Below, one piece after another: positions 1 through 63,474 of a stretch of 64,000 nt of DNA (its first letter is position 1; each line of letters opens with the position of its first letter). The notes below the pieces were generated by a model. That model saw only the letters and a program-made list of their open reading frames with translations, had not been told where the DNA came from and ran no database searches. The stretch lies in contig NZ_LMEF01000007.1 of NCBI RefSeq assembly GCF_001427905.1, positions 23,184 to 87,183 of the forward strand. The letters run 5' to 3'. A program made the translations under genes and the position numbers. Source of the stretch: Flavobacterium sp. Root420. Lineage in GTDB: Bacteria > Bacteroidota > Bacteroidia > Flavobacteriales > Flavobacteriaceae.

Positions 1-2102
1 TTTCCGTCATCGCCGCCAATCGGAATTCGGCGTTGAGCAGTCTGCATACTATTGGCGTACAGATAACTATCTTTTGTTAAATTTACTAAAGTTTCATAAT
101 AGGTGATGCTTTTCTCCAAATGCGGAAGTGCTTTATCCAAATCTGAGATATCATTTGAGTAACTGTATCTTAAAACCAATAAGGCCGCTTTTACCTTTTC
201 TGAAAAGAAATCGGCGAAAGCTTTATAGCAATGCATATCGTTTTTAAGACGTAAAAATTCGTCTTTGTCTTTTGTTACTTTTGATTCTGCTTTGTCAATT
301 GCTTCCACAGCCAGTCTTCCGTGTTCCGTGATTTCGGCAATAATCTGCGTTGGAAGTTCACCCACATGTGGTTCGTGATTCCACTCTTTTTTAGAATATT
401 CCAAAAGCAATTCACCAACCGGACCACAAGATTCATGGAAACCAGGATAAACACGCCATTTTGCCGGATTTACCAACTGACTTTCGAACATTCCCAAAAG
501 TAAAGTCTGACGGTTTCCTTCTGTAATTCCGAAACGTCTTAATGTTTTTGGAGCAATTTCTCCGGATTCATCGTACGCCTTTTGAATATTATTGGCTGCT
601 TCTGTATCTGTTCCGTATTTCGCCGCTAAATCTTTATCCCAAAATTTAATTTCTTCCTTTCGGTCTCTTTTACTGTCCCACGCATATCTTGCCCAGGCTT
701 TGTACCAAATCCAGTCGCGATCCATTTCTAATAATCGTTCTCCCGTTTTTGTTTTATCTGCAGAATACGGCCAATCCCAATACGATGCCTGGGGATATAA
801 ATGCAGCGCATTTGCACCGTGCACGCTGTGCATTGCCTTTACGGTTTTCTGAATAAAATCTGGCGAACCGTATCTGAAAGGTTCCAGATTGGCCAGAATG
901 TGGACATTCTCAATATGAATCGATTTTAAAGCACTTAGCTGTTTGTGCGTTTCTCCCCAAGGTCCGCCTGGAGTGTAAGTAGTCAAGGATTCTCCGGTAT
1001 ATTTACTTTCTGTATATAAGTTTTTGTAAAGTGGAAGCGATTTTTCCATCACCAAAGGTCCATCGGTATCATGCGAACGCAAAATAATTGGCGGTTCGTC
1101 TGTTCTTCCTAATGCTTTCAAACCATCCTGAACACCCGGAATAATCGTTTTGGTAAACCATTCCACATCATCATCCACCGTATTAATGGCTTCTCCCAAG
1201 CAAACCATCAATCCCACATTTGGGTATTTTTCGATAAAAGCCGCAATTGATTTTCTGGTATAATCAGAAAGTAAGGGCGTAATTGGACGTGAACGATCTT
1301 GTGTTTTGATATTATAATGCTCCGCAAAAGGTTTCGAAACGATAATATTGTAGAACATCTGAATGACCCAGATCCCTCTTTTGTTGGCTTCTACAGTAAG
1401 GAATTTATAGACTTCTTCGTTCTTTTTAAAATCTTCGTCGCTTACCTCAACAGCAAAAGGATATTCTTTCAATTTCACCAAGGAAGCGAATGGATGTCCG
1501 TTCCATAAATACAAGGAATTCATTCTGTTATCGACCATCATATCCAGATACTTTATCCAAAGCTTTTTATCATAAAACCACGGAAAAGTTTCAGGCGTAT
1601 ACGGATATTCGTAAACGTCCCTTCCCGGAAGATAAGTCGTCTTTTGCATTCCGATACAGGCTCCTCTCAACACCATTTCAGGACTGTCATTAATATTAAT
1701 TTCTGACGGAAGTTGTCCTGAACTTTTAATACGGTCTGCCAATTCCATTGCGCCGTATAAAGCACCGCTTGCGTCAGTTCCTTCGATATAAATAATATTT
1801 TTTTGCGTACGGATCTGGAACCCTTCTTTCTTAGTTAATTTGCTATCATCGATTTTGGCAGACTTCGAATTTTGATTCCAAAAATCAGTTCCTTTTTCGC
1901 CAATTACAATGACTTTATCTTTTGAGTTTTTAGCTATTTTATCTTCAGCAATTACTTTGAATCCTTTAGCTGATGCGATTTCAGATAATTTTTCAGCTCC
2001 AAACTGAGCTCTTGGCGATTTTGAATCACTAACAATAGTGATATTTTGCGCTGTTGCGAAAGTGGCGTAAAAACATAAAAAAAATAAGGTGATGTATTTC
2101 AT
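1..2102 (-). CDS. GH20/GH67-like secreted glycoside hydrolase, partial (C-terminus outside window)
   Basis: The reading frame opens with ATG at 2102-2100 and stays open for 700 codons to the left edge, so the C-terminus is missing. Residues 1-19 form a signal peptide ending in ATAQ. Residues 20-125 look like the alpha/beta zincin-like N-terminal domain seen in front of GH20, GH67 and GH115 catalytic barrels (pattern of VIVIGEKG, then EGFQI, then a GALYGAMELADRI helix). A TIM-barrel-like part follows, with acidic stretches such as CLGEAINTVDDD and HIENVHILANLEPF. This resembles proteins annotated as alpha-glucuronidase-like or GH20 zincin-like fold hydrolases, so an exo-acting uronidase or hexosaminidase-type role is possible. 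It is the last gene visible in the PUL and lies about 260 bp after the isomerase-like gene. The family level is fairly safe; the substrate is unknown. Confidence 0.7.
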   Translation of the reverse strand, partial: MKYITLFFLCFYATFATAQNITIVSDSKSPRAQFGAEKLSEIASAKGFKVIAEDKIAKNSKDKVIVIGEKGTDFWNQNSKSAKIDDSKLTKKEGFQIRTQKNIIYIEGTDASGALYGAMELADRIKSSGQLPSEININDSPEMVLRGACIGMQKTTYLPGRDVYEYPYTPETFPWFYDKKLWIKYLDMMVDNRMNSLYLWNGHPFASLVKLKEYPFAVEVSDEDFKKNEEVYKFLTVEANKRGIWVIQMFYNIIVSKPFAEHYNIKTQDRSRPITPLLSDYTRKSIAAFIEKYPNVGLMVCLGEAINTVDDDVEWFTKTIIPGVQDGLKALGRTDEPPIILRSHDTDGPLVMEKSLPLYKNLYTESKYTGESLTTYTPGGPWGETHKQLSALKSIHIENVHILANLEPFRYGSPDFIQKTVKAMHSVHGANALHLYPQASYWDWPYSADKTKTGERLLEMDRDWIWYKAWARYAWDSKRDRKEEIKFWDKDLAAKYGTDTEAANNIQKAYDESGEIAPKTLRRFGITEGNRQTLLLGMFESQLVNPAKWRVYPGFHESCGPVGELLLEYSKKEWNHEPHVGELPTQIIAEITEHGRLAVEAIDKAESKVTKDKDEFLRLKNDMHCYKAFADFFSEKVKAALLVLRYSYSNDISDLDKALPHLEKSITYYETLVNLTKDSYLYANSMQTAQRRIPIGGDDG

Positions 2103-2358: not shown

Positions 2359-3255
2359 TTAATTCTGAAAAATCTTTTTTAAGTAGGCTACGTTTGCACC
2401 ATAATTGACTTTTACATTATGCACTTGTGTTACATCTCTGGAGCGCTCCACAATTAGCCAGCCGCTCCATTTCATTTCGTCCAGCGTCTTTTTAATTTCC
2501 GGCATATTGATCATCGTGTCATTTTCCAGCCAAACTTTATCGGTGTTTGAAGCGTGAATTTGTGCCAGATGTTTTTTGCCTAATATTTTTAATTCCGAAA
2601 CTATATCTCTTCCGTTATCTGCGGCATTGGCAAAATTGAAAGAGCTTTTGATATGTTTAGAACCAATTTCTTCTAAAAGTTTTTTCTCTTCAGTAGCATT
2701 CAGTGAAGTTTCAATGGCGATAACTCCGCCAATTTTACCTACTTGTTTTCCTGCCCATTTTAGTCTTTCAATAACAATCGGACGCAATTCCGGATTTTTA
2801 ACCAAATCACTTTCTGTTCCCAACGGAAGATACGCCACTTTTACTTTCATGTCTTTCATTGCTTTTACGCAATCATTAATCATGGGTTCGATGGTTTCTC
2901 TTTTCGCAAAAGACTGTGCATAGAATCCGGACATGGCAATAGAACTGATTCCCACATGCAACTCTTTGGATTTATCCAGGAACTTTTGTCTTTCAACCGG
3001 ATCTCCTAATTTACTATCAAAAGTTGGTCTTTTTCCTAAACCTCCCATGTCCAGTTCTATTCCGTCGGCTTTGATTTCGCTTGCCAAACCAAAAGCACCT
3101 AATTTTTGCCTTTTTAAAATCATCCAGTCACAAACCGCAACTTTATATTGTTGTTTGTTTTTTGATGATTGAGCTGTTGCGCAACTATTGAATGAACAGG
3201 AAAAAACTGCTAAGATTACGATAATAATGCTTTTCTTGAAATGAGCTAAATTCAT
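2359..3255 (-). CDS. Sugar phosphate isomerase/epimerase-like TIM-barrel lipoprotein
   Basis: This 298-aa protein has a lipoprotein signal peptide (hydrophobic run, then SFNSC with Cys at 25). The rest matches the xylose-isomerase-like TIM barrel of the sugar phosphate isomerase/epimerase family: KADGIELDMGG near the first strand, GISSIAMSG, AYLPLG, GGVIAIETSLN, SSFNFANAADNG and a C-terminal GWLIVERSRD strand. Acidic and histidine residues that would bind a metal (ELD, IETS, QIHASN, ERSRD) can be seen. Family members are mostly cytoplasmic. The lipid-anchored location here suggests a periplasmic isomerase or epimerase acting on a released monosaccharide, or a glycosidase-like relative. It lies between the sialidase-like gene and the GH20/GH67-like gene. 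Superfamily confident, reaction unknown. Confidence 0.75.
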   Translation of the reverse strand: MNLAHFKKSIIIVILAVFSCSFNSCATAQSSKNKQQYKVAVCDWMILKRQKLGAFGLASEIKADGIELDMGGLGKRPTFDSKLGDPVERQKFLDKSKELHVGISSIAMSGFYAQSFAKRETIEPMINDCVKAMKDMKVKVAYLPLGTESDLVKNPELRPIVIERLKWAGKQVGKIGGVIAIETSLNATEEKKLLEEIGSKHIKSSFNFANAADNGRDIVSELKILGKKHLAQIHASNTDKVWLENDTMINMPEIKKTLDEMKWSGWLIVERSRDVTQVHNVKVNYGANVAYLKKIFQN

Positions 3256-3417: not shown

Positions 3418-4566
3418 TTATTCCTCTTCAGCCTTAACAGCCGTTACGGTTTTGTTTTCGTCTCCAGGCCAGATTCCATTTTTAATTGGGAATGCTTTTA
3501 ATTTACTTGGATCAACCTTTACGTATTTGATTTTTTCTCTTCTCCAGGTATAAACGATATGCACCATTCCATCTGAACTCTGAATCATCGATGGATAGGA
3601 GTATTGACTGATTTTTGAATCTTCTAAAACCAGAGCCGCTTTCCAGTGAATTCCGTCATCAGAAATTGAAACATTTAATGGCGTTCTCGGCCCTTTTGCT
3701 TCCGTTCCCGGAGGCAATACGTGATTGTAAACCAACAAATGTTTTCCATTTTTAAGTGTCACGGCATCGGTTCCTGAATTGTTATTTGGCAAACCGATTA
3801 ACTCGATATCTGACCATGTTTTTCCGTTATCTTTTGAGAATGTGCTAAAGATTGCTCTGTTTCTCGTTCTTCCAATTGCCTGAATACTTCCGTCTTTATG
3901 GAAAAGAATACTTGGCTGAATCGCATTGATTTTGTTTTTTCCTCTTGATAAAGTATCTCCTAAAACCCATGTTTTTCCGAAATCAGGAGAAGTTTCCATT
4001 CGCAATCTCCAACCATCGCCTTCAATACTTGACGGACATAATAAAGTTCCGTTGCTTAATAAAACCGGTTTGTTTTTGATTGGCCCCAAGAAATCTTTAC
4101 TAGGCATATTCTTAGCCTCAGACCATGTTTTTCCATTATCAGATGAAGTTCTGATCACACCCCACCACTCCGATGGTTTTGGTCCGATTTTGTAGAAAAG
4201 CATTAAATCGCCACCCGGAATCTGATATAAAACCGGATTCCATGTTGGTAATCTCGGTCCGTCTTTCATCACACCATCGGCAACATTTATACCTTCAGTC
4301 CATTTGTCGCTTCCTTTTGGTTTTCTGCTTACATAAATACAAACGTCAGGATGTCTTTCTTTTGTTCCTCCAAACCATGAAGCTACTAAATCTCCGTTTG
4401 TAGCCTCCACAATTGTGGCAGCGTGACAAGACGGATAAGGCGCTTTATCATAGATAAATTCATCAACTAAAATTCCTTCTTTCCAGGTCTTTTTTTCTAA
4501 AGCAGATTTACAACTTCCTAAAAGCAATAAACCGAATAAGACAAAAGTTAACTTTATGATCTTCAT
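3418..4566 (-). CDS. Sialidase-like (BNR repeat) exo-glycosidase, lipoprotein
   Basis: This 382-aa protein has a lipoprotein signal (LLLLGSC, Cys19). It is a six-bladed beta-propeller of the sialidase superfamily: Asp-box motifs SSDNGKTW (141-148), SPDFGKTW (193-200) and SKDNGKTW (about 244-251) are clear. Further family marks are an early SCHAATIVEATNGDLVASWFGG segment and a late SYPSMIQSSDGMVHIVYTW segment. It matches the BNR_2 type common in pectin PULs. It need not be a true sialidase, since pectin carries Kdo and Dha, sialic-acid-like keto acids found in RG-II, and this fold could remove one of them; that is inference. It is the first gene of the third block, with a putative operator about 110 bp upstream (4676-4690). 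Confidence 0.75.
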   Translation of the reverse strand: MKIIKLTFVLFGLLLLGSCKSALEKKTWKEGILVDEFIYDKAPYPSCHAATIVEATNGDLVASWFGGTKERHPDVCIYVSRKPKGSDKWTEGINVADGVMKDGPRLPTWNPVLYQIPGGDLMLFYKIGPKPSEWWGVIRTSSDNGKTWSEAKNMPSKDFLGPIKNKPVLLSNGTLLCPSSIEGDGWRLRMETSPDFGKTWVLGDTLSRGKNKINAIQPSILFHKDGSIQAIGRTRNRAIFSTFSKDNGKTWSDIELIGLPNNNSGTDAVTLKNGKHLLVYNHVLPPGTEAKGPRTPLNVSISDDGIHWKAALVLEDSKISQYSYPSMIQSSDGMVHIVYTWRREKIKYVKVDPSKLKAFPIKNGIWPGDENKTVTAVKAEEE

Positions 4567-4701: not shown

Positions 4702-7452
4702 TTAACGCTTTACACTTACATTATAAGCACCTGACGGCAATGTCAAAACAGGTTTAGCTCCTTCGATTTTATAAGTTTCACTAGTTATTTTTTTACCATT
4801 TAAGGCAACATCTGAAATATTGTTTGTTGGCAAATAAACCAAAGCCGAAGTGTTCGCCGGAATAGTGATATTCCATTGCAAATTGTTTTTACTTTTCTTC
4901 CAGTTGCTTTTTATCAGTCCGTGAATGGATTCATAAGACGCGTTTACGTAAGTTAATCCTGCCTCAAAATCAGGTTTCATAATAATTTGTTTGAAACCCG
5001 GAGTTTCAGGATTACTTTTGATTCCGGCCATATTTTCGTAATACCAAATCAATAAATCGCCTAAAAGCATTACGTGATTTTGAGAGTTCATAGTTGGATC
5101 TGCTGTATTTCCGTTCCATAATTCCCAAATCGTAGTCGCTCCGTTTTCTACCATATAACCCCAGCTTGGATAGGTTTTATTGGATGCCAGTTTGTACGCC
5201 AAATCTCCTCTTCCAAAATTGGTCAGCGTTCGCATCAAAAATTGAGTTCCGATTACACCCGTACTGATATGACCGTTTTTCGTTACCTCAACTTCTTGCA
5301 CCATATTCTGAAAAACCTTTTCTTTTAAATTTTCAGGAACTAGTCCGAAAGCCAACGGCAATACATTTGCTGTAACCGTATTATTGGCGTACGTATTCGT
5401 TGCTGCATTTAAATATTTTGCATTGAAAGCTTTACTGATTCTTTCTGATAAATCAGTATAATGTTCGATATCAGTATCCGCATTAGCGATTTTGGCAAAC
5501 TTTTTCATAATTCCCAATAACTGATAATAAAAGGCACTTGAAATCAATCCGCCATCTGTTAAGCGAGCCGGATCTTTCGAACGAATTAATTCTAACGATT
5601 CAGGCGGCACGCACCAATCGCCGTATTTATCCTTATCCATCAAATCGTTTACCAGGTAATTTTCTTCCATATACAGCATCCATTTTTTCATGTTTGGATA
5701 TTGTTTTTTAATCACTTCCTGATCTGCAAATTGTTGGTACAACATATCGGCAACCGTAATATAAGTTCCCGGCCAGGTTACATTATCGCCATAATAACGC
5801 CAAAATGCTGGCGCTACATCTGGTAATCCTCCATCTTGGGTTTGTGCATTTTTTATATCATCCAGCCATTTGGCATACAAAGTCTGATTATCGAATATAA
5901 AACTTTCTCCATAAGCTCCGGTTGTTCGGTCTCCCAACCAAGGCTGACGCTCGTTTCGCTGCGGACAATCAATTGGCATTCCTTTGTAATTTCCTCTGAT
6001 TCCCCAATAGGCATTTTTGAAAATCTGGTTCATTATCGCGTCTGAAGATTCGAAAGTTCCGGTTGTTTTCATGTCATCATAAACCACTTTTCCAACAAAA
6101 TTATCTACAGTTGGTTTTGTTGGAAATCCTGAAATTTCTACAAAACGGAATCCGTGATATACAAATCTCGGTTCCCAAATTTCTTCGCCTTCGCCTTTTA
6201 AAGTATAAACATCCGTAGTTTTTGCATCGCGCAAATTGGCGATATAAAGTGAGCCATCAGCTTGTAAAGATTCTGCAAATTTCATTGTAACCTGATCGCC
6301 ACTTTTTCCTTTAACTCTCAATTGCAGCCAGCCCACCATATTCTGCCCCATATCTAAAATATAGGTACCTTTTGCAGTCTCTTTTATAGAAATAGGTTTT
6401 ACCTCTCCCATTATTTTCATGTTAGGCGTCATTTGCCCTTCATAAAACCCACCAGGTTCTTGCACATATCTGACATTTACCCAATTTTTATCATCAAAAT
6501 TAGTTGTGTTCCAGCCTTTCATCTCCTTGCGGGCATCGTATTCTTCTCCGTCATATTCGTTGTTGGACAAAATGGGTCCGTCCGTCGTAACCTTCCACGT
6601 ATCATCTGTTCTGATAATATCCTGACTTCCATCTGTATATTCAACAAACAACTGCAAAGCCATTTTTGGCAAGCCAAATGATTTTATTTTATACGGTTTG
6701 TAATCTTGTCGCATGGCAAAAAAACGTCCGTTTCCTAAAATGGTTCCCAACATATTTTTGCCTTCTTTCAATTGCGAAGTCACATCAAAAACATTGTATT
6801 TTACGTTTTTAGTATAATCCGTAGGAACGGGTGCCAAAACCTGATCGCCAATTTTATTTCCGTTAATGTATAGCTCGTACAAGCCCATTCCCATGATATA
6901 AACCTTGGCATTTTTAACCTGTTTTTTAAGATTGATTTCTTTCCTTAAATATCTAGCCGATAATCTTGCGTACTGAGAAACACTGTCATCTTTCGATAAT
7001 TTTTCATAACCAATCCAGCGGGTCGATTTCCAGTCGGCATAAGTTAATATCCCAATGCTGAAATGGGCGCTTTCATTTGATTTTATTTCTCCTTTATTGG
7101 TCCAGACAATTACTTTCCAAAACGCGTCTTGCCTGTTTTCGAGTTTTTTTCCTTTGTAAATAATATTGACAGCTTCATTACTTTCAACTTTTCCGCTATC
7201 CCATAAATCGCCATTGTTAGCATTTAAGTTTCCTAAAGTTGAAGCTACTAAAATTTGATACGCCGTTTGTTTTACATCGTTTACATCTGCATTAATTTGC
7301 CAGCTCAGTCTTGGTTTTAAAACATCAATTCCTTCCGGATTGTTCAGCATTTCGCATTGCAAATTGGTAACGCTGATTTTATTTTGGGCTTTCGCCGAAA
7401 AGGAAATCGTTGTTACGATGATGCATGTAATATGTAAAAAAAACTTTTTCAT
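4702..7452 (-). CDS. GH78 alpha-L-rhamnosidase
   Basis: This 916-aa secreted enzyme has a signal peptide (residues 1-23, ending SAKAQ). Order of parts: N-terminal fibronectin-like domain (SVTNLQCEMLNNPEG, LKPRLSWQI), carbohydrate-binding beta-sandwich (AKVYIMGMGLYELYING), a second sandwich, an (alpha/alpha)6 catalytic barrel and a C-terminal beta-sandwich. The catalytic-barrel signature DCPQRNERQPWLGD begins at Asp495, with Glu501 and Asp508 in the usual place of the general acid. Glu777 in GATTIWELWNG fits the general base. Length is typical for the family. It would release terminal alpha-L-rhamnose from pectin side chains or from the rhamnogalacturonan backbone. It ends the second block, with the third-block operator directly after its stop codon. 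Confidence 0.92.
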   Translation of the reverse strand: MKKFFLHITCIIVTTISFSAKAQNKISVTNLQCEMLNNPEGIDVLKPRLSWQINADVNDVKQTAYQILVASTLGNLNANNGDLWDSGKVESNEAVNIIYKGKKLENRQDAFWKVIVWTNKGEIKSNESAHFSIGILTYADWKSTRWIGYEKLSKDDSVSQYARLSARYLRKEINLKKQVKNAKVYIMGMGLYELYINGNKIGDQVLAPVPTDYTKNVKYNVFDVTSQLKEGKNMLGTILGNGRFFAMRQDYKPYKIKSFGLPKMALQLFVEYTDGSQDIIRTDDTWKVTTDGPILSNNEYDGEEYDARKEMKGWNTTNFDDKNWVNVRYVQEPGGFYEGQMTPNMKIMGEVKPISIKETAKGTYILDMGQNMVGWLQLRVKGKSGDQVTMKFAESLQADGSLYIANLRDAKTTDVYTLKGEGEEIWEPRFVYHGFRFVEISGFPTKPTVDNFVGKVVYDDMKTTGTFESSDAIMNQIFKNAYWGIRGNYKGMPIDCPQRNERQPWLGDRTTGAYGESFIFDNQTLYAKWLDDIKNAQTQDGGLPDVAPAFWRYYGDNVTWPGTYITVADMLYQQFADQEVIKKQYPNMKKWMLYMEENYLVNDLMDKDKYGDWCVPPESLELIRSKDPARLTDGGLISSAFYYQLLGIMKKFAKIANADTDIEHYTDLSERISKAFNAKYLNAATNTYANNTVTANVLPLAFGLVPENLKEKVFQNMVQEVEVTKNGHISTGVIGTQFLMRTLTNFGRGDLAYKLASNKTYPSWGYMVENGATTIWELWNGNTADPTMNSQNHVMLLGDLLIWYYENMAGIKSNPETPGFKQIIMKPDFEAGLTYVNASYESIHGLIKSNWKKSKNNLQWNITIPANTSALVYLPTNNISDVALNGKKITSETYKIEGAKPVLTLPSGAYNVSVKR

Positions 7453-7634: not shown

Positions 7635-9197
7635 CTATTCCGAAACCAATCTCTGCAATTTCTCAGAAACCGCAATTTCCTTACCGTTTTTAAAAATTCT
7701 AAATCCTTTTCCTTTATGATATTTTTCACCGGTTTTATCCCAAAGAATCGTAATGATATTGCCGTGATACAAAACGTTATCTAAACAAAACCAATCCCAT
7801 TTTTCCTGTGGAATTAACGGATTCACTTCTATCTTTTCATCCGCTCTCGGACGTAAACCTACCAAACCTGTAATCACTAAATCATTAAAAGTGGAGTGAT
7901 TATAATAACGGCTGCGTTCTCTTTCACCCATTAACCAATATCCTGTGGTTTCATCTAAATATTCGCCCAAATAAGGTCTTCCATGGAAATATTGTGATTC
8001 AACATATAAATTCATTTGTTTGAAATAATCCGGTTTACCCACAAAATTCTGGTCGTAATTATTCAAAACATTTGCTAAAGCAGTTAAGGTTTGTGAGCTC
8101 GCAAAAGGCCAAATCGCACCGTCCCATTCGCAGGTTCCGGTTCCGTGAGTTCTAAAACGCGAACTCCTTCTTTCTGCCGTTGTTAATCCGAATGGCGCTG
8201 AAAATCCTTTTTCATCTTTAATTTGTTCCCAGGCCTTTTCAAAACCTTTGTCTTTTTGCGGCAAATTAAAATACCACGGAATAAATCCGATGGCTTCTCT
8301 CACCTGCGCCAAAGTATCTTTCTCTGTAAACGTTTCAAAGAATTCACTTTTAGGATTCCAAAGTTTTGTTTCTACTAATTTCTGAAGTGTATCGGCTTTA
8401 GCTTCAAAATAACTTTCTTGTTTTTCATCACCTTTTAGCTTCGCTATTTTAGCTAAAGCCGTTGCATTTCCAAACATATAACTGTTGATTGTCGGTCGTG
8501 CATTTCTGAATTTTCTGGCGCCGCTCAACGATTCTTCCATTCCGTCTTTTACATCAAATTGCCAAAACAATCCGTCTTTACGTTTTCTGTCACCTTCCCA
8601 GGCTGCATATTCCGCCACTAAATCGGGATACATGTCTAATAAAAACTTATCGCCTTTATTTACCAAATAGCGATTGTACAAAGCATCCGCCGTCCAACTG
8701 CTAAAAGTACGAAGCTTTTTCATTGGTTTACCGTCATTTCCTCTAAACCATAAATGAACGTCTTCTTCTAAATATTGCGGATTGTGAATCCATCTGAATT
8801 CATTAATGTGATGTCCCAAAGCGCAACTGATCATATTGTATTTATCGGCATACGAACGATCTACCAAAAACTCTGTTATCGCATATCCCTGTGGTGTTTT
8901 TTTGATATGCTTTCTCGCACTCCACCAACGGAAATAATAGATCTCCTCAAAATTTTGCTGTGGACATTCAAACAACGGAATATTTTTCTCCATCCACGCC
9001 CAAGCAGAATCATTTGGAATGGCGAATTTTAAATTCTCATCTTCCATCGTATTGAAATAATCAACATAATGTTTATAATTTTCTTGTTTTAAAATTGCTG
9101 CTGTGCTTTTTGAATGTGGTGATCCTGATTTGCAACTGCTTAAAGTTGCAATCAGGATTATGAAAGCTATTATTTTGTATTTAAGATAATGTAACAT
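7635..9197 (-). CDS. MGH1-like (GH63-related) glycoside hydrolase lipoprotein
   Basis: This 520-aa protein is read from ATG 9197, because the codons upstream cross a repeat-rich gap and would place 43 unlikely residues before a clear lipoprotein signal (IAFIILIATLSSC). The body is an (alpha/alpha)6 barrel of the MGH1/GH63-like kind: FRWWSARKHI, FSSWTADALYNRYL, DGLFWQFDVKDGMEES, TINSYMFGNATALAKIAKL and CEWDGAIWPFASSQTLTALA. Acidic residues in FDVKDGMEES and CEWDGAIW are the likely catalytic pair. The family includes glucosidases and mannosylglycerate hydrolases; in a pectin PUL an exo-acting enzyme on a side chain is likely, but the sugar cannot be read from the sequence. Neighbours are GH78 and GH95. 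Confidence 0.75.
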   Translation of the reverse strand: MLHYLKYKIIAFIILIATLSSCKSGSPHSKSTAAILKQENYKHYVDYFNTMEDENLKFAIPNDSAWAWMEKNIPLFECPQQNFEEIYYFRWWSARKHIKKTPQGYAITEFLVDRSYADKYNMISCALGHHINEFRWIHNPQYLEEDVHLWFRGNDGKPMKKLRTFSSWTADALYNRYLVNKGDKFLLDMYPDLVAEYAAWEGDRKRKDGLFWQFDVKDGMEESLSGARKFRNARPTINSYMFGNATALAKIAKLKGDEKQESYFEAKADTLQKLVETKLWNPKSEFFETFTEKDTLAQVREAIGFIPWYFNLPQKDKGFEKAWEQIKDEKGFSAPFGLTTAERRSSRFRTHGTGTCEWDGAIWPFASSQTLTALANVLNNYDQNFVGKPDYFKQMNLYVESQYFHGRPYLGEYLDETTGYWLMGERERSRYYNHSTFNDLVITGLVGLRPRADEKIEVNPLIPQEKWDWFCLDNVLYHGNIITILWDKTGEKYHKGKGFRIFKNGKEIAVSEKLQRLVSE

Positions 9198-12057: not shown

Positions 12058-12074
12058 ATAAATATTTTTTTTTC

Positions 12075-12169
12075 GCCACGAATTCACGAATTGACTCTAA
12101 TTATTCTTTGCGTTTAATTTCTCAAATTATTATGGTCGCAGATTAAAAAATAATTCGTGAATTCGTGGC
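12075..12169. repeat. Palindrome GCCACGAATTCACGAATT / AATTCGTGAATTCGTGGC
   Basis: Eighteen-base complementary arms (12075-12092 and 12152-12169) close a loop of about 60 nt between the esterase and GH95 genes. The same arms recur at 22782-22841 and 45598-45656 with unrelated loops. Confidence 0.8.
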
Positions 12170-13600: not shown

Positions 13601-13628
13601 TTTATTGTGTATTGACAGGCTTAGATTG

Positions 13629-19523: not shown

Positions 19524-19536
19524 GCTTTTGAAATTA

Positions 19537-19595
19537 AACACTAATTTCACTAATTAACACAAATTGAATTGGTGTAAATCTGTGAAATTAGTGTT
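19537..19595. repeat. Palindrome AACACTAATTTCAC / GTGAAATTAGTGTT
   Basis: Fourteen-base perfect arms (19537-19550 and 19582-19595) occupy the gap between GH28 and GH43. Confidence 0.8.
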
Positions 19596-49354: not shown

Positions 49355-52786
<3,432 letters not shown>

Positions 52787-52788
<2 letters not shown>

Positions 52789-55964: not shown

Positions 55965-58145
55965 TTAAATCGCCTTATAACTCACTTTATACTCAACATT
56001 CGGCTTCACAATTAATTGATATTTATTTTTAGCCAAAGTCGTAATCGTTCCTGAATTCGTTTTCGGTTTGCCTGAACTTTCGAAAATCAATTTTCCTTCG
56101 CCTTCCCCTGCTTTTACTTTGATTTCTTTGGTGCTGCAGTATAATTCTACTTCACCATTTGGTGTTGGCACTTTTCCTTCCATCCATTGTAAACCGCCTA
56201 AATTGGGTTTGATTTCATATTCTGCATAACCCGGAGCAGTTGGTTTTACACCCAAATAATATTTCCCTAATAGATAAATCGGACTAGAACCCCACGCATG
56301 GCAAAGACTTTTTCCATAAGGGCGTCCATACATCGCTAGATGTTCTGTTCCTTTTTTGATTGGATTGTATTCTTCCCAAAAAGAAGTTGCGCCTTCTTTT
56401 AACATTCCGCCCCAATACTCTTTCATTTCCTTCAACACATAATCCTGTTCGCCCATTGCACACAAGGCTTCCAACTCGTAGAAACGCATGTAGGGTGTTG
56501 TGATTTTAAGAACATTATCATTCAGCAACACCTTCTTTTTTATGCTCTGTTTTTGTTCTTCATTAAAATAATTGAAAAAAATACCGAACATATTAGCGTA
56601 TCTGGTTACGATATCCTGCATTTTACCGTCTATACGCTGGTGCTTCATCACGTTTTCTTTTTTATCCCAAAAGACATCAAATAATTTTGTTTTTAAATCA
56701 TCAGCTAATGTTTCATATTGTTTTTGGTCATCCTTTTCACCTGCAATTTTAGCACTAACTGCCATGGCTTCTAAACTTCTGGCTAAAAGCATTTGCTCAA
56801 AACTGACCTCTCCGGTTTTTGGTAATCCGTCTGCCCAATCAATAAAAACCCAATCGCCTTCTAATGGTTCCAGGAATCCGTTTGTGTTTCTTCTTTTTAA
56901 GCAGAATTCCATCAGTGATTTCATTCGTGGATAAAAAGCTTTGATAAATTTCGTATCGCCTGTGTGTAAATAATAATCGTAAACACCTACAAACCAATAC
57001 AGTGAATAATCCATTATGATATTAATATGAGCCGTCACAGGTTCTTTACCACGAAGTGCCAACAGCGTTCTTTCTACCGAAGCCGAATCAAAGAATAAAT
57101 AATAATTCATTAAATAACTTTGATAAGCATCACCAGACCAAACCCAACGATCGCGTTTAATCCCGTCTATAAAAAATTCGCGAGTTGTTAGATGCATCGT
57201 GTAAGCTGACACATCCCAAATTTGATTCAATTGTTCATCCGAAGATTTGAATGCTCCGCGATAATCTAATGGCAAATATTCATAAAGCATCGATATAGAA
57301 TCATATTTTACCGTTGCATCTGCTTGTACCTGAACATATCGGAATGCTTTCGATCCATCATGTGTGTAAGTTTCAGGCTGGTTTCCATCAAAAGATAAAT
57401 GGTCTAGTGTTTCACATTTGGCAGAATCCAGCGCTTCCTCACGAGATTCGCCATAATAAAGTGCTACTTTACCTTTTCCTTTTAAACCGTGAATTTTAAT
57501 ATAACCAAAAGTTTCTTTACCAAAATCTACCAACTCACCAGCTCCTGTTTTTTCTGTTTTTTTTGCGTTCAAAGGTTTGGTTGTTAGTTTAAATCCGGAA
57601 GGCTTATTCTCTGGTGAATAAAAATTCCAGGAACCAACAGGTACCCATGGTGTGCCTGACTGTTGTGCTTTTCCAGCTTCGTCAATCCAAAGCTTATCTT
57701 CATTGGTCACCTTCCACGATGGATCTGATTTAACATACTTACCGGCAATATAAATGGCTGGCAACACTTCCTGATTGTATACTTTAAAGGAAATTTTATG
57801 TTTCCCGGCAGGAATTTTTATTGATTTTGGTTGCCCGTAAACCTGAACACCATCTAAAAGTAACTGAAAAGAGCCTTCCGAGTAGATTTTTACCTCGTCT
57901 GGTTGTGGAATATCTACTTCTGTTTGAAAAGTTACCAGGGCATAAGGACTGTAATATTGCCAAAGCGGTGGAAATACTGCTTCGCGTTCTGTACGTCTTA
58001 CCTGCATTTTATTGCTTAACCAAACTTCGAAATCTCCGGGATACCAGATCCAGGTTTGCGCCGAAGCAGCTTCCGATAAAAAGAATAACGCACCAAGACA
58101 AACAACAGTTTTTAAACTTTGGTGTAAAGAAGATAATCTTTTCAT
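55965..58145 (-). CDS. GH78-type alpha-L-rhamnosidase (third copy, short form)
   Basis: This 726-aa secreted protein has a signal peptide ending AASAQ. It is shorter than the two 915-aa GH78 proteins and lacks the N-terminal fibronectin-like repeat. Residues about 30-300 hold beta-sandwich parts (VKIYSEGSFQLLLDGVQVYG, GELVDFGKETFGYIKIHG). The barrel carries FIDGIKRDRWVWSGD with Asp327, the counterpart of DCPQR-E, and SFWEEYNP with Glu591 as likely base. The FFIDGIKRDRWVW type is a recognised GH78 subgroup. Its start codon is 1 bp downstream of the symporter stop codon, so the two are translationally linked. Probably removes rhamnose or a related deoxysugar. Confidence 0.85.
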   Translation of the reverse strand: MKRLSSLHQSLKTVVCLGALFFLSEAASAQTWIWYPGDFEVWLSNKMQVRRTEREAVFPPLWQYYSPYALVTFQTEVDIPQPDEVKIYSEGSFQLLLDGVQVYGQPKSIKIPAGKHKISFKVYNQEVLPAIYIAGKYVKSDPSWKVTNEDKLWIDEAGKAQQSGTPWVPVGSWNFYSPENKPSGFKLTTKPLNAKKTEKTGAGELVDFGKETFGYIKIHGLKGKGKVALYYGESREEALDSAKCETLDHLSFDGNQPETYTHDGSKAFRYVQVQADATVKYDSISMLYEYLPLDYRGAFKSSDEQLNQIWDVSAYTMHLTTREFFIDGIKRDRWVWSGDAYQSYLMNYYLFFDSASVERTLLALRGKEPVTAHINIIMDYSLYWFVGVYDYYLHTGDTKFIKAFYPRMKSLMEFCLKRRNTNGFLEPLEGDWVFIDWADGLPKTGEVSFEQMLLARSLEAMAVSAKIAGEKDDQKQYETLADDLKTKLFDVFWDKKENVMKHQRIDGKMQDIVTRYANMFGIFFNYFNEEQKQSIKKKVLLNDNVLKITTPYMRFYELEALCAMGEQDYVLKEMKEYWGGMLKEGATSFWEEYNPIKKGTEHLAMYGRPYGKSLCHAWGSSPIYLLGKYYLGVKPTAPGYAEYEIKPNLGGLQWMEGKVPTPNGEVELYCSTKEIKVKAGEGEGKLIFESSGKPKTNSGTITTLAKNKYQLIVKPNVEYKVSYKAI

Positions 58146-58146
58146 A

Positions 58147-59727
58147 TTAATTAAAATTAAAAATGAGGTATAAACTCAAAATGACGATTCCTAAGATAGC
58201 AAATAATAATTTGACCTTTTTACTGGTTTTCGGAACATCAGTTTCACTCACAAAATTAGTTTCCGGACTTTTATCTAACAACGAAATAACAATTGCCGAT
58301 ACTAATAAAGTCGCAAAAATGTAAAATGAGATCAATAAAAAGTGAGGCCAAACTGGATATTTATCTGCAGGGAAAATCCATAAATATAAAACCCCAACAA
58401 ATAAACTAAAGGCTGAACCCCAGGATAATGTTGCGTTTACTGCTTTCTTTGTGGTACGTTTCCAAAAAATACTTAACAGAAAAACAACAGATAATGAAGG
58501 CGCCAAAAATCCTAAAACGGCCTGAAAAATATTAAATAAATTTTGTCCTTTTATATTGTCAATCGCAACAGCAATCAAAATGGCGAATAAACATCCGCCT
58601 GCAATTGTGATACGGCCAATTTTAATTTGTTCTTTGATACTCGCTGTCGGATTGATTTTCTTCACATAAATATCATTAGTAAAAACGGTACTTAAGGCGT
58701 TTAAGGATGAACCAATTGTCCCCACCAAAACCGCAATCATAACACAAATCACCAAACCGTTCATTCCACTTGGGAATAAATTAGTCACCATGGTCATATA
58801 TGCGAGATCAGAATTAGTGCCTAATTCCGGATATAAAACGTAACACAGAATTCCAGGTAAAATAAATAAAGGCAATGCCATCACTTTTAACCAGCCAATG
58901 AAATTAACTCCCAATTGTCCGTGCTCTAAATTCTTCGCTCCCAAAACACTCTGTACCATTGATTGATCAGTACAGAAAAAAGCAACCGCCGCAACCGGGT
59001 ATCCCAACAAAATAGCAGGCCACGGATAATGTGCGTCGCTTGCAGGCTGCACTAAATTCCAAAAGTTAGAAGGTGTTTTGGCAATTAAGGCGCTGATACC
59101 TCCCACTTTTTGCAATCCTAAATAGGATAATGTCAATGAAACAACGATCAATAAAATCATCTGGAAAACATTCACTTTTGCAATGGCTTTCAAACCTCCT
59201 GCGAAAGTAAAAATTCCGGAAAAAATGACTAAAACAGTAACACTTTGCCACATCGGAATTCCGAGAATCTGGCGTACCAAAATTCCTCCGCTAAATAATC
59301 CTAACGATAACCAACTTACCAAAATTTTCACCAAAGCATACCAGGCCAAAATATTTTGTGTGCTGTCGCCATAACGTTTTCCCATATATTCCGGCATGGT
59401 GCTGACTTTGCTCGCAATATAACGCGGCGCAAAAACCATAGCCAAAAGCAGTAAGAAAACAAAGGCGTACCACTCAAAATTTCCGGCTACAATTCCGGTT
59501 GCGTAACCAATACTTGCAAACGCCAATAATGAGGATGGACCAACATTGGTTCCCCACATATTAAACCCAATGCTGTACCATTTTAGCGAATTCCCAGCCA
59601 GAAAAAGTGTTTCGTTTTTCTTGCTTTGCTTGACACTTACTACGTAACCAATAATTAATAAGGCCACTAAATAAACGGCGACAATAATAAAATCAAAGGT
59701 GGTTAACTTATCGTAGATACTGTTCAT
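58147..59727 (-). CDS. Sodium:solute symporter (SSS family)
   Basis: This 526-aa inner-membrane protein has 13-14 hydrophobic segments, starting FIIVAVYLVALLIIGYVVSV. SSS marks include ETLFLAGNSLKWYSIGFNMW and TNVGPSSLLAFASIGY in the first helices, MPEYMGKRYG after helix 3, and DQSMVQSVLGAK in the middle, with the NxxSxxxS-like SSLNALSTVFTNDIY. Such PUL symporters move released monosaccharides or uronates into the cytoplasm using sodium. Its ATG overlaps the stop codon of the oxidoreductase gene by 4 bp, and its stop is 1 bp from the GH78 start. The substrate (rhamnose, galacturonate, apiose or other) is unknown. Confidence 0.9.
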   Translation of the reverse strand: MNSIYDKLTTFDFIIVAVYLVALLIIGYVVSVKQSKKNETLFLAGNSLKWYSIGFNMWGTNVGPSSLLAFASIGYATGIVAGNFEWYAFVFLLLLAMVFAPRYIASKVSTMPEYMGKRYGDSTQNILAWYALVKILVSWLSLGLFSGGILVRQILGIPMWQSVTVLVIFSGIFTFAGGLKAIAKVNVFQMILLIVVSLTLSYLGLQKVGGISALIAKTPSNFWNLVQPASDAHYPWPAILLGYPVAAVAFFCTDQSMVQSVLGAKNLEHGQLGVNFIGWLKVMALPLFILPGILCYVLYPELGTNSDLAYMTMVTNLFPSGMNGLVICVMIAVLVGTIGSSLNALSTVFTNDIYVKKINPTASIKEQIKIGRITIAGGCLFAILIAVAIDNIKGQNLFNIFQAVLGFLAPSLSVVFLLSIFWKRTTKKAVNATLSWGSAFSLFVGVLYLWIFPADKYPVWPHFLLISFYIFATLLVSAIVISLLDKSPETNFVSETDVPKTSKKVKLLFAILGIVILSLYLIFNFN

Positions 59728-60788
59728 AGCTTATATTCTTTTAAAACATCAGCTATTTTAACTGGCATTCCGGTTTGTAAAGATTTGTCCATCGCCTGTA
59801 ATAAAGCCACAGTTCCGATACCTTCTTTCATATCCGGATAGGCTGTGAAATTTTGTTCAATACTGTCTACAAAATATTCCAGATAATTTTGATATTCTCC
59901 TGCATGGTGGCTTTGACCTTCAAAACGGAAATAATGTTTTAAGGTTGCATCGCCCCAGGTTATTACTTTTTCTTCTCCATCTTTTGTCGTTACGGCATAA
60001 CGCAATTCATGATAATCAGCCTGGCTTGCGCCTTCAGTCGCTCTTAGAATTGTGCTCATTCCGCTGTCTCTTTGAGCTGGTTGTGTTGGAGAGGTATAAA
60101 CCCCGCTAACTCTGGCGATTCTTCCGTCGGTTGCCTTGAAGATGAAATGCATTGTGTCCTCATTTTTTAGTCCAGCGACACTTCCGTTACTGCTGATCAT
60201 GCCATAACCCATCACTTCTTCAATGTTTGGCAAATACCATCTGATGAAATCTACAGGGTGACTTAAACCTCCGTAAAGCCATTTAAACGATTGTAACAAC
60301 GACCATTCTTTTTCTAAAAACCATCTGTGATCAGCGTGATAATGCGCTTCGATTGTAATTAAATCGCCAATTAATCCTGCTTCAAAATCATTTCTTTGTC
60401 TTTTTGCAGGTTCAAAAAATCTTGAACTTTGACCGATGAAAACTTTCTTTCCCGTTTTTTCGCTCAGGGCTAATAACGCTGCTGCATCAGCCAAATTATC
60501 GATAAAAGGTTTGGTACACACTACATGTTTTCCATGAAGTAAAGCTTGTTTCACATGATCAGCATGAAGATGATCCGGTGTATAAATAGCAATAATATCA
60601 ATTTCGGAATCATTTAATAAATCATCGTAATTGGTGGTATATGAATGAAAATCAAATTCCTTTGCTCTTTGTTTACACAAATCTTCATTTCTGTCACATA
60701 CTTTTACGAGCTCCAATTTCGCGCTTTTTAAAGCTGCCGACATGGTACTGCGACCTTCTCCAAGTCCTAAAATGGCAATTTTTAACAT
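59724..60788 (-). CDS. Gfo/Idh/MocA family oxidoreductase
   Basis: This 354-aa protein has no signal peptide, so it is cytoplasmic. The N-terminal Rossmann fold has the nucleotide-binding stretch IAILGLGEGRS (about 4-14), a CDRNEDLCKQRAKEF strand, DIIAIYTPDHLHADHVKQAL, and KHVVCTKPF (the EKP-like catalytic-Lys motif, here TKP). The C-terminal part has the HRWFLEKEW, GGLSHPVDFIRWYLPNIEEV (His near the substrate) and NYLEYFVDSIEQN blocks. It would oxidise or reduce a sugar or its derivative with NAD(P), probably the sugar imported by the overlapping symporter. Direction and substrate are unknown. Two CCTAACAGG palindromes fill the gap upstream. Confidence 0.88.
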   Translation of the reverse strand: MLKIAILGLGEGRSTMSAALKSAKLELVKVCDRNEDLCKQRAKEFDFHSYTTNYDDLLNDSEIDIIAIYTPDHLHADHVKQALLHGKHVVCTKPFIDNLADAAALLALSEKTGKKVFIGQSSRFFEPAKRQRNDFEAGLIGDLITIEAHYHADHRWFLEKEWSLLQSFKWLYGGLSHPVDFIRWYLPNIEEVMGYGMISSNGSVAGLKNEDTMHFIFKATDGRIARVSGVYTSPTQPAQRDSGMSTILRATEGASQADYHELRYAVTTKDGEEKVITWGDATLKHYFRFEGQSHHAGEYQNYLEYFVDSIEQNFTAYPDMKEGIGTVALLQAMDKSLQTGMPVKIADVLKEYKL

Positions 60789-60972: not shown

Positions 60973-63474
60973 TTATATTTTATTTAAGAAAATCCAGGTT
61001 TCATCAGGTTTTGCTCCTTCTATTCCGGTTTGGTATTTTTTCATTAGGGCATTCCAATCGTCTACACGTGGATTATTTTCTGTTGTTTTTGGATTCAGTT
61101 TGTCCAGATTTTCTCCTTTCGGAATACTGATTACCAACATTAATTGTCTTCCGTTTTTGAAAACCTGTAATTGTTGAAAATCGGCGTTGCAGAAACCTTT
61201 TGCGATTTCAGGCCATTTTTCAAATTGAGTAGTATGATAATCTACATACTCTTTTTGCAATTTTTCGTCATTTACCAAATTGACGGTTAAAACAATATTT
61301 TCCCATTCAGATGCCGGTTTAGAATCTTTACATCTTTCAAAATTTTGAAAATCGTAAATCGGTTTTTCGTAAATTTTTATTTCTGCCGATGGATAAGCGA
61401 GCGCCAACTTCTTTTTCGTTCTTTCCGGCTGATTCATTTTTCCGTAAATCACCAAATGATTTTTCCACTGATAAATGGATTCACCTACAATTCGGAAACC
61501 TTTGATAGTTGATTTTACTTTCTCAATATCAAAATCAGAACCGATCATTTCGATGACTACCGATTTAGGTAATTCCTGTAAACCCCAGGCTTCATCAACA
61601 ATTGCCTCTTTTGTTAAAGCTGCATATGGTGCTCTAATTCCCGCCGCCTCTTTAATTTTTGTGCTGACATACGGATTATTATTCTCCCAAATATTTCCTT
61701 CCGGACCGTTATTATTTTTTAGGATTTTCTCTGTTGCAATCCAGTTATTTTTGATGGTAAAACCCTGACTCCCTTCATCTGTATACAAATACAACCATAA
61801 AAACGGATCGTGTGCATAGGGACTGTTGTACACTTTATCAATATAATTTCCTTCTATTCGGCTGTTTGGCTGAGAAGAAAGCGTGTAAATTCCGGAAACA
61901 TCATGAAGATGTTTGGCATAATGATGAATTTTATTGGATAGAATTTTGTTGTTTTCCATCACATTTTTGGTGTGCGTCCAACCCCATCCCATTGAAATTC
62001 CGCTATACGCCACATCCGAAATTTCGTTGTGTTCAATAGTAAGGTTTTTTATAAAACCGGCTGCAATTCCTAAACATCCCCAATCTTCGTTCGCGACATT
62101 GGTAATTAAATTGTCCGCAATTACTTCATCGGAACAAATTTCTCTTTCATCTTTTATAACTAAAGGTAAATGGGCCTCAAAAGCTTCTTCAGAAAAAACA
62201 CCAATACTTATAGCATTTCCGCCAATATCTTTAAATAAATTTCCTTTGATTATATTATGATTGCTACCTTTATTCAAATCTAATCCGGTCGAAGACAAAT
62301 GTTCAAAATGACAAGATTCAAATTGATTATGATTAGCATAATTAACTTCAACAGCTGCTCTTGGTCTCCCAACCCAACCCTGATTTTCCAGATTGGCCTG
62401 ATTTGGAGTTCCGGGAACTTTCAATTTATAAGCATCCAGTAAATACATTCCGGCCTGCAACGGAACGTGACCTTGTTGCGAAGGACGAAGCCAGTTACTG
62501 TATTGAAATGAAATTCCTTTGAAATTAAAATGATGAACCGGAGAATCAATTGTTCCTTTCATCTCCACTAAATTTTCCAGAACGGGAACGATAACTTTTG
62601 CAGAAGTCAGATCTTCACCATCTCTCGGAATATAATAGATTTTGGCATTTTTTTTATCTAAAAACCATTCTCCGGGTTCGTTCAACATGGAGACTCCGTT
62701 GTTTAGAAAGAAAGCTGAATTTCCGTTGTTTTTTGAAATCCATGGCGCTGGCCACGGATGTTCGCTTTGAATGCGGCTTTCCGGTTGTTCAAAAGAAAGT
62801 CGGGCGCTGTCTTTTTGAACTTCGATATTTTTGATACGAAGATTGGCCGTTGACCACCATTGAATGATAAACATTTCCATTCCGGGTTCGTACTTTATGG
62901 ATTTATCTTTAAAAGGAATCCAGCAAGTTTCTGTTGCCGCATCCCAGGAAAGAATTCTATCCATTTGGTCTCCAGCAGTACTTTTGGCTCGCACGGCTTT
63001 TTTTCCGTTGACCCATAATTGTCGGTAATTTATAATTTCACCCGCTTTTTGAGGCACATCAGCTACCCAGACATTTCCTTTTTTTTGTCCTTTAATTATG
63101 GTTGTAGATTTTTTCCAATTTTTTATTTCTAATCCGCCGCTGATTATTGGCATTGCACTTACATCAGCTTCAATTGTGGTTGGACTTTCCGGAGTTCCTG
63201 AATCTTCAGGTCTTACGAATAAAGGTTCGTTTAGATAATACGTTCCGTCTGTTACAATAATATAAATACCGTCTTTTATTGATGGATCTTTTAAGCGACG
63301 TAATTCTCTGGCTTTTCTTATGGCCATGTTTACAGTTGCTAACGGACTTGCTTTTGTTCCGGGATTGGTATCTTTTCCATTGGTCGAAACCCAAATCTCG
63401 GCTGCTGTTGCTGAAAAGACAGAACAGATGATCAAAAAAAGGATAAGTACTTTATTATGAATGAGTAAACGCAT
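60973..63474 (-). CDS. Secreted beta-helix (GH141-like) protein with C-terminal L-rhamnose mutarotase-like domain
   Basis: This 833-aa protein has a signal peptide ending FSATAAE. Residues about 25-640 form a right-handed beta-helix starting IWVSTNGKDTNPGTKASPLATVN, with PEDSGTPESPTTIEA and HFNFKGISFQYSN, as in the GH141 (BT1002) fold. From about residue 650 two ferredoxin-like halves follow. The second matches RhaM: LQKEYVDYH (Tyr743, His747, the Tyr-x3-His of the mutarotase active site), FEKWPEI, FKNGRQLMLVISIPKG and DDWNALM (Trp807, Met811). The first half (GFRIVGESIYQWKNHLVIYGKM) may be a decayed copy. In other systems RhaM is a separate cytoplasmic protein. It is the first gene of the locus after a shared operator, so its product is probably central. 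Confidence 0.75.
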   Translation of the reverse strand: MRLLIHNKVLILFLIICSVFSATAAEIWVSTNGKDTNPGTKASPLATVNMAIRKARELRRLKDPSIKDGIYIIVTDGTYYLNEPLFVRPEDSGTPESPTTIEADVSAMPIISGGLEIKNWKKSTTIIKGQKKGNVWVADVPQKAGEIINYRQLWVNGKKAVRAKSTAGDQMDRILSWDAATETCWIPFKDKSIKYEPGMEMFIIQWWSTANLRIKNIEVQKDSARLSFEQPESRIQSEHPWPAPWISKNNGNSAFFLNNGVSMLNEPGEWFLDKKNAKIYYIPRDGEDLTSAKVIVPVLENLVEMKGTIDSPVHHFNFKGISFQYSNWLRPSQQGHVPLQAGMYLLDAYKLKVPGTPNQANLENQGWVGRPRAAVEVNYANHNQFESCHFEHLSSTGLDLNKGSNHNIIKGNLFKDIGGNAISIGVFSEEAFEAHLPLVIKDEREICSDEVIADNLITNVANEDWGCLGIAAGFIKNLTIEHNEISDVAYSGISMGWGWTHTKNVMENNKILSNKIHHYAKHLHDVSGIYTLSSQPNSRIEGNYIDKVYNSPYAHDPFLWLYLYTDEGSQGFTIKNNWIATEKILKNNNGPEGNIWENNNPYVSTKIKEAAGIRAPYAALTKEAIVDEAWGLQELPKSVVIEMIGSDFDIEKVKSTIKGFRIVGESIYQWKNHLVIYGKMNQPERTKKKLALAYPSAEIKIYEKPIYDFQNFERCKDSKPASEWENIVLTVNLVNDEKLQKEYVDYHTTQFEKWPEIAKGFCNADFQQLQVFKNGRQLMLVISIPKGENLDKLNPKTTENNPRVDDWNALMKKYQTGIEGAKPDETWIFLNKI

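Follow-up and report, generated by a model that had tools for sequence, protein, structure and literature searches.

A contiguous Flavobacterium locus predicted to dismantle rhamnogalacturonan II, and the DUF6298 protein that accompanies it

Few plant glycans are considered as complex as rhamnogalacturonan II (RG-II), and the work cited here on the enzymes that take it apart comes mostly from gut Bacteroides. Which polysaccharide, then, is a long run of pectin-related genes in Flavobacterium sp. Root420 equipped to use? The stretch in question, here called the window, comprises 64,000 nucleotides of RefSeq assembly GCF_001427905.1 (genome G000, contig C7, NZ_LMEF01000007.1, positions 23184-87183). 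An earlier note, made from the letters of the sequence, had read it as an RG-II or complex rhamnogalacturonan locus with every gene on the minus strand, an arrangement borne out for the 30 gene-sized open reading frames (ORFs); plus-strand ORFs of at least 100 aa number seven, are 100-131 aa each, and all overlap minus-strand genes. With gene families assigned by Pfam, NCBIfam and PDB sequence matches, we predict that the window holds most of a single contiguous RG-II utilisation locus, fitted to bind RG-II, import it and take it apart one side chain at a time, and put the probability of this at about 0.9. A second question concerns gene 22853 (genes are named by their first coordinate in the window; Table 1), which encodes a DUF6298 protein and belongs, on genomic evidence, to the RG-II system.

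The enzyme set and the polysaccharide it fits

All seven glycoside hydrolase (GH) families founded on RG-II enzymes, GH137 to GH143, are matched in one block, with a GH127 gene that exceeds the curated cut-off of the aceric-acid-hydrolase model, and a SusC/SusD pair (SusC by TIGR04056 over cut-off, SusD by Pfam) lies together with three genes of polysaccharide lyase family 1 (PL1) type. GH142 was founded on a beta-L-arabinofuranosidase and GH143 on a hydrolase of 3-deoxy-D-lyxo-2-heptulosaric acid (Dha), and GH95 is known as an alpha-L-galactosidase. In plants, Dha and 3-deoxy-D-manno-oct-2-ulosonic acid (Kdo) are confined to RG-II (PMC12168206), and PMC12282258 places 2-O-methyl-fucose in no plant wall glycan other than RG-II. 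Because these are RG-II sugars in plants and the enzymes founded on them sit together here, RG-II is the predicted target. In its alignment with 9hyq the GH139 protein is identical at W403, Q411, N412, E472, W490, E561, N639, E641, W683 and D723 (printed alignment, with an offset of one; W162 left out), the catalytic and substrate-binding residues of the GH139 enzyme BT0984 being taken from PMC12282258, to which the GH139 entries 9HYQ and 9HMB belong.

The earlier note had not recognised GH137, GH138, GH139, GH142 or GH143; all five are present, by PDB or NCBIfam matches, and the idea that their roles stand empty was discarded. Its guess that such roles might be filled by 16673, 41317, 52787, 54110 and 22853 was right in that these include GH143 (16673), GH139 (41317) and GH137 (52787), and wrong for GH142 and GH138, which are other genes (7635 and the gene at the window start). 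Of its unassigned propellers, 16673, 52787 and 54110 do have that fold by homology or model, as does 3418; 41317, however, belongs to GH139, a family with an (alpha/alpha)6 core in its solved members (PMC12282258), and 22853 is a beta-helix plus a barrel in the model. The rest of its inventory, namely one SusC/SusD pair, GH28, GH106, GH95, GH127, GH140, GH43, GH2, three GH78-type, three PL1-type and two esterase-type genes and GH141, is confirmed, its GH141-like helix protein carrying in addition a C-terminal rhaM domain; the GH140 and GH95 candidates, on whose family placement it had staked its reading, both match Pfam catalytic models strongly.

The GH138 gene is truncated by the window start, and the locus continues into the flank below, where the remainder of GH138 (the two pieces tile model NF049878) is joined on the same strand by genes for a 1168-aa GH2 with a malectin domain and an 810-aa GH2, beyond which lie divergent ABC/MacB genes; the NCBIfam scan of the flank took in these two genes in full and the remainder of GH138. 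The cut gene and the two same-strand GH2 genes bring the polysaccharide block to about 70 kb and 32 genes.

An order of action can be proposed from the characterised homologues of Bacteroides thetaiotaomicron (B. theta), for which named RG-II linkages have been assigned to BT1017, BT1018, BT1021, BT1012, BT1001, BT0996, BT0992, BT0997 and BT1002 (PMC7939467). The PL1 lyases, likely located at the surface, would open the pectin, after which SusC/SusD would import the fragment; the BT1017-type esterase would remove methyl groups and the SASA esterase likely acetyl groups. Chain A would be stripped by GH95, the BT0996-type GH2, GH138, GH141 and GH78/GH106, and chain B by GH137, GH106, GH139, GH2 and the GH127 aceric acid hydrolase. 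From chain C, rhamnose (Rha)-Kdo would likely be removed by GH78a and the sialidase-like protein 3418; from chain D, arabinofuranose (Araf)-Dha would be removed by GH142 and GH143; GH43 would take off Araf. GH140 would release apiose from the backbone, which GH28 would finish, and DUF6298 (22853), modelled with a GH140-like barrel, would likely act as a further exported enzyme.

DUF6298 and its company across Bacteroidota

In a draw of 296 Bacteroidota genomes (G-numbers), searched with the PF24067 (GH143) and PF19815 (DUF6298) profiles, full-length PF19815 occurs in 15, which are exactly the 15 genomes judged RG-II-type (the count omits partial or weak matches in G089, G119, G158, G171 and G203, as well as a second, short one in G286). 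Set against all 17 genomes that match PF24067 strongly, the association has a Fisher's exact p of 2e-23, or 1.6e-11 by genus, with no other correction for relatedness. Those 17 include 7 of the 18 genomes of the window's genus, its own among them (weak sub-cut-off matches in G118, G134 and G214 not counted). GH143 alone was rejected as a mark of RG-II degraders, since the copies in G031 and G190 are 36-40% identical and stand without RG-II neighbours in 40 kb each; 'RG-II-type' is a judgement and denotes the 17 minus these two, placed by neighbourhood (G000, G033, G080, G150, G166, G238, G269 and G286) or by GH143, DUF6298, GH137 and a 3418 homologue on one contig (G021, G025, G138, G170, G202, G206 and G222). 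The divergent GH143 group (36-40% identity; loci L023, L018 and L019), without RG-II neighbours, comprises a second copy in G238 and those of G190 and G031, and its substrate may be other than the Araf-Dha of RG-II.

All seven RG-II families are also matched in G033, G080, G150, G166 and G238, five genomes from four other Bacteroidota families; GH141 was not seen in 80 kb of G269. Strong GH139 matches (E under 1e-100) come from the 14 RG-II-type genomes other than G286 and from G182, 15 genomes in all, the count leaving out G014 (E 9e-63), G126, G034 and G013. G286 is the weakest RG-II-type genome: GH139 is absent, 80 kb of it showed neither GH138 nor GH141, and it is the sole one of the 15 without GH137 (searches for GH137 and 3418 homologues covered these 15 genomes only). 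Inside its RG-II region lie a RuBisCO-large-chain-like gene and a SBD_N/NBD_C kinase-type gene (L158:12543-15220). RuBisCO-like proteins have been linked to apiose catabolism, and the two genes may help to break down apiose or some other unusual sugar.

The same company is kept at the level of loci. Among the 80 GH143 loci compared (L-numbers), the best of at least 562 relatives and made up of 37 titled Flavobacterium or Flavobacteriaceae bacterium and 43 others, 75 have DUF6298 no more than 10 kb from GH143 (36/37 and 39/43, respectively), the highest proximity count, GH143 aside, of the window and flank proteins compared (GH43 reaches 74 and GH140 70). The 37 titles bear out the Flavobacterium host proposed in the earlier note. 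In these 75 loci the next matched gene upstream is PL1 in 62 and the next downstream is GH140 in 68, with gaps below 500 bp. Of the five loci without a local copy, four (L069, L077, L090 and L102) belong to genomes that carry one elsewhere, and the fifth, L053, is a 3.3-kb contig, so that DUF6298 is present in 79 of 80 loci or their genomes; the genome check covered 8 of the 80, these four and four already positive (L067, L081, L099 and L101). The genome of L101, from a Bacteroidales of roe deer rectum, holds two tandem full-length DUF6298 genes (G303:C2:53475-57922). In gut Bacteroides, DUF6298 was found in B. ihuae (a control genome) and B. ovatus (in a cluster of 20,179 sequences); B. ovatus grows on RG-II (PMC3243724). 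The relatives of the DUF6298 protein of G238, a Bacteroidales-type genome, are from Bacteroides and Phocaeicola, and its gene adjoins a PL1 gene and a hybrid two-component system (HTCS) regulator gene. As the B. theta RG-II locus has one HTCS, BT0981, its only one (PMC3878776), a B. theta DUF6298 gene likely stands next to BT0981, a placement drawn from the synteny of G238 only.

What would such a protein do? In the structural model its best barrel-type Foldseek matches are GH140 enzymes (BT1012, 5msy; and 8t9w) at E 2e-9 to 6e-9 and a target TM score of about 0.5, with the GH5-labelled 4qfu and 3kzs close behind, and we take it as likely a further exported RG-II enzyme. Both of its modules are enzyme-type folds in the model, and an alignment of the window protein with homologues from 22 of the 80 loci is invariant at 69 of 405 positions in the helix and 101 of 375 in the barrel, counting columns occupied in no fewer than 18 of the 23 sequences; among these invariant positions are D300, E301, H303, D344, E353, E744, H748, E819, D854 and D857, which fit active sites. 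It differs from the GH140 apiosidases, at about 10% identity, in an extra N-terminal beta-helix, and no Apiosidase Pfam match was found that would place it in the GH140 sequence family. VIA-align covered mainly the beta-helix of the model (residues 76-683), which makes the lack of GH140 from its list uninformative.

Several points weigh against the enzyme assignment. The model has a mean pLDDT (predicted local distance difference test) of 68.3, a moderate confidence, with parts of the barrel under 50. Compared with GH140 by profile, DUF6298 gives a probability of 45.5% (18.4% with smaller alignments) against at most 2.7% for the other families, 13 being tried, but 9 of the 12 control families had only 4-11 sequences, and the strong part of the match is the C-terminal beta domain, not the barrel. 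Such barrels carry their acid/base and nucleophile at strands 4 and 7. In the DUF6298 alignment no conserved acid was recognised at the strand end of a GH140-type nucleophile, which would suit a non-catalytic accessory protein for glycan binding or surface assembly; DUF3826, another recurrent partner, is described in PMC7939467 as without RG-II binding or esterase activity. Set against the many invariant residues of helix and barrel, from D300 to D857, and the enzyme-type folds of both modules, the accessory role is a serious alternative that we nonetheless doubt.

An exported enzyme remains our preferred assignment, and it can be joined with protein 54110, which B. theta lacks in its RG-II locus. 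The best refined fold match of the 54110 propeller is, in the model, GH137; no match to the GH137 sequence family was found, its NCBIfam match being limited to the C-terminal domain of GH138. In a joint reading, DUF6298 would be a missing core RG-II enzyme founding a new CAZyme family, shared by all Bacteroidota RG-II degraders and cutting at the base of the apiose-anchored side chains or at a linkage without a recorded enzyme, and 54110 would be a GH137-fold arabinosidase able to take the place of GH137, G286 being an example. The boldest choice of linkage is that of 2-O-methyl-xylose, since 2-O-Me-Xyl-alpha1,3-Fuc is given in PMC7939467 as uncut by B. theta. We put this forward tentatively, its chances being a little short of even. 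Co-occurrence without exception in the draw does point to a further RG-II component, which can be tested in gut Bacteroides.

Split and fused enzymes and the likely chain C pair

An independent line of argument on which enzymes act in sequence comes from genes that are split in one organism and fused in another. BT1020, BT0996 and BT1017 of B. theta each hold two modules in one protein, whereas here these are separate genes. GH143 and GH142 lie 7.5 kb apart and match the two halves of BT1020 (5mqr) at 739 and 757 bits; GH137 covers positions 4-365 of NF049877 and the 1168-aa flank GH2 positions 360-1400 (1564 bits), so that the two tile the whole 1400-position BT0996 model; and DUF3826 has a gene of its own, apart from the BT1017-type esterase. 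G238 has the fused forms: GH143-GH142 (1116 aa), pectin methylesterase-DUF3826 (660 aa), GH78-BNR2 (1264 aa) and a GH137-GH2 of 1429 aa that matches the flank GH2. Of the 80 loci, L099 (Dysgonomonas) has a GH143-GH142 fusion. Sinomicrobium pectinilyticum has another type of fusion, GH43-GH143 (L064:5596-8424). The window's own GH141-rhaM fusion recurs in G033, G080 and G150, and is not found in G166 or G238; it may allow a released sugar to undergo mutarotation without delay. SASA esterase and GH139 genes are neighbours in the window as well as in G150 and G238, and the esterase may take acetyl groups off chain B.

The same reasoning applies to 3418, a sialidase-like protein whose gene adjoins that of GH78a (4702). 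Homologues of the two are fused in 3 of the 80 loci (L087, L094 and L096) and in genomes G150 and G238, and a fusion of a rhamnosidase with a sialidase-fold protein suits the Rha-Kdo of chain C in the way that GH142-GH143 suits the Araf-Dha of chain D. All 15 RG-II-type genomes give a match to 3418. In a set of 17 sequences, Asp-box-like motifs and several arginines do not vary; BNR_2 is matched in Pfam at 295 bits. A GH33 Kdo hydrolase is listed among RG-II enzymes (PMC11214529), and a Kdo hydrolase is recorded for family GH33 (PMC9120202). On this footing 3418 is likely a Kdo hydrolase; that the assignment rests on fold, fusion and co-occurrence counts against it. Were it to remove another acidic sugar, or to be inactive, its weak PDB sialidase matches (best E 1.2e-06) and its want of an NCBIfam match would be as expected, but the fusion with GH78 in three loci and two genomes, the match in all 15 genomes and the GH33 Kdo hydrolase named for RG-II make this unlikely.

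Surroundings of the locus and comparison with known systems

The features of the window are collected in Table 1.

Table 1. Genes of the 64,000-nucleotide window, with the evidence for each assignment
Feature	Position	Strand	Evidence and remarks
GH138, alpha-D-galacturonidase, BT0997 type	1..2102	-	3' end outside window, 910 aa whole; NF049878 5-692, 1283 bits (cut-off 1300 for whole protein); flank part 694-901, 248 bits
Xylose-isomerase-like TIM barrel protein	2359..3255	-	PF01261; recurs near GH143 in 12/43 loci outside Flavobacterium set
Sialidase-fold lipoprotein, likely GH33-type Kdo hydrolase, chain C	3418..4566	-	PF13088 (BNR_2), 295 bits; weak PDB sialidase matches
GH78a alpha-L-rhamnosidase, partner of 3418	4702..7452	-	Pfam GH78 modules
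GH142 (= BT1020 C-terminal half)	7635..9197	-	ORF opens 9326, likely ATG 9197; 5mqr residues 604-1104, 757 bits
GH95	9592..12087	-	PF22124, 615 bits
BT1017-type pectin methylesterase without DUF3826 module	12185..13642	-	6goc residues 26-460, 415 bits
GH78b alpha-L-rhamnosidase	13763..16510	-	Pfam GH78 modules
GH143 (= BT1020 N-terminal half), Dha hydrolase family	16673..18538	-	PF24067, 408 bits; 5mqr residues 24-609, 739 bits
GH43-type propeller	18606..19550	-	PF04616, PF22847
GH28	19607..21181	-	PF00295; NCBIfam GH28-type matches below cut-off
GH140 apiosidase family	21343..22794	-	PF13204, 369 bits; PF12904
DUF6298 protein, proposed RG-II enzyme	22853..26011	-	PF19815, 788 bits; signal peptide, beta-helix (~76-480), GH140-like barrel (~580-955), C-terminal beta domain in model
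PL1-type pectate lyase with TSP3-like tail	26325..28025	-	NF041900 and MtsD matches below cut-off
Stand-alone DUF3826 protein (= BT1017 C-terminal module)	28127..28801	-	PF12875
PL1-type pectate lyase with TSP3-like tail	28884..30587	-	NF041900 and PF18884, both below cut-off
SusD-like lipoprotein	30690..32687	-	PF07980, PF14322
SusC-like TonB-dependent transporter	32705..36061	-	TIGR04056, 738 bits, over cut-off
GH127 aceric acid hydrolase	36618..38636	-	NF049879, 1127.8 bits, cut-off 950
PL1-type protein with extra N-terminal part	38838..41297	-	9buj pectate lyase, 151 bits
GH139, 2-O-methyl-alpha-L-fucosidase family, BT0984	41317..43650	-	9hyq, 928 bits; catalytic residues identical
SASA-type esterase adjoining GH139, likely chain-B acetylesterase	43826..45259	-	PF03629
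GH106 alpha-L-rhamnosidase	45702..49160	-	PF17132, 573 bits
GH2, LacZ type	49355..52747	-	PF02836, PF02929; NF052611, 954.9 bits, cut-off 999
GH137 (= BT0996 N-terminal half)	52787..53908	-	5mt2, 425 bits; NF049877 positions 4-365
GH138-like beta domain and five-bladed-type propeller protein	54110..55786	-	NF049878 positions 724-889; model; best refined fold match GH137
GH78-type alpha-L-rhamnosidase (Bac_rhamnosid-like_N)	55965..58145	-	PF21209, PF17389
Sodium:solute symporter	58147..59727	-	PF00474, TIGR00813
GFO/IDH/MocA oxidoreductase	59724..60788	-	PF01408
GH141 (BT1002 type) with C-terminal rhaM mutarotase domain	60973..63474	-	5mqp, 658 bits over 23-621; PF05336 at 730-832

That the locus is instead aimed at RG-I or a mixed rhamnogalacturonan, its RG-II families serving other substrates, is very improbable: PL1, GH28, GH78, GH106, GH2 and GH43 are widespread in pectin loci and GH141 also has endo-fucanase activity (PMC12786026), but seven RG-II-founded families and an over-cut-off aceric acid hydrolase are co-located, Dha, Kdo and 2-O-methyl-fucose are RG-II sugars in plants, and no PL9, PL11, GH105 or GH88 match over cut-off was found by Pfam and NCBIfam in the 30 window genes (one sub-cut-off PF07470 match lies inside the GH127 gene). 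Some points do tell against an RG-II locus. Its function is predicted from genes; the GH2 activities (beta-galacturonidase, beta-galactosidase and arabinopyranosidase) are not distinguishable by sequence here; the LacZ-type GH2 of the window is 35% identical to its G238 counterpart, and a 964-aa GH2 of G238 is without a close match (27%). Nor did the 30 genes of the window and the 13 flank genes scanned, the rest of the genome not having been searched, include an HTCS regulator; the G238 relative does have one, and its presence is not treated here as defining an RG-II locus.

Above position 63474 lie sugar-catabolism genes for a class II aldolase, a short-chain dehydrogenase/reductase (SDR), an amidohydrolase, a zinc alcohol dehydrogenase and a fumarylacetoacetate hydrolase, a cassette that likely serves fucose or rhamnose. 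There is more than one SDR gene in this cassette (L002, above window position 63816), and some genes have ambiguous bases close to where the reading frame breaks; a seemingly broken aldolase-dehydrogenase gene in this upper flank was rejected as a frameshift, the break falling on an ambiguous base. ARAGORN found no transfer RNA gene in the window, and an Rfam scan of it gave a single match, a Flavo-1 RNA (RF01705, 47 bits) at 9245-9333 on the minus strand, between GH95 and the likely start of GH142, inside the operon-like block. A Flavo-1 RNA stands at the matching place in the nearest relative, L024; no match over the gathering score was found in L026, L033, L043, L048 or L061.

How does the locus compare with what is known? 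RG-II sets in Flavobacterium have already been inferred in print: PMC7922503 reports that GH137, GH138, GH139, GH141, GH142 and GH143 co-occur, for the most part in Bacteroidetes, and counts Flavobacterium johnsoniae among the pectin degraders of that group. That paper worked on CAZy families, and its available text does not take in DUF6298, the BNR_2 gene, the esterases or gene order. The association of DUF6298 with RG-II looks new; it was not found in the published literature searched, which did not extend to the 2017 founding B. theta paper, where DUF6298 may be described. The reference system is the B. theta RG-II locus BT0977-BT1030, which is induced by RG-II (PMC3243724, PMC3878776) in an organism that cleaves all RG-II linkages but one (PMC12282258). 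Common to B. theta and this Flavobacterium are the seven RG-II-founded families, GH127, GH95, GH28, GH43, the BT1017-type esterase, PL1 and SusC/SusD. They differ in that the B. theta genes are spread over three loci (PMC12282258), whereas this Flavobacterium has one single-strand block with one SusC/SusD pair, no HTCS seen in the block and scanned flank, and rhaM on GH141. In one block it has matches to the full RG-II-founded set, laid out in single-activity genes where Bacteroides-type genomes have fusions.

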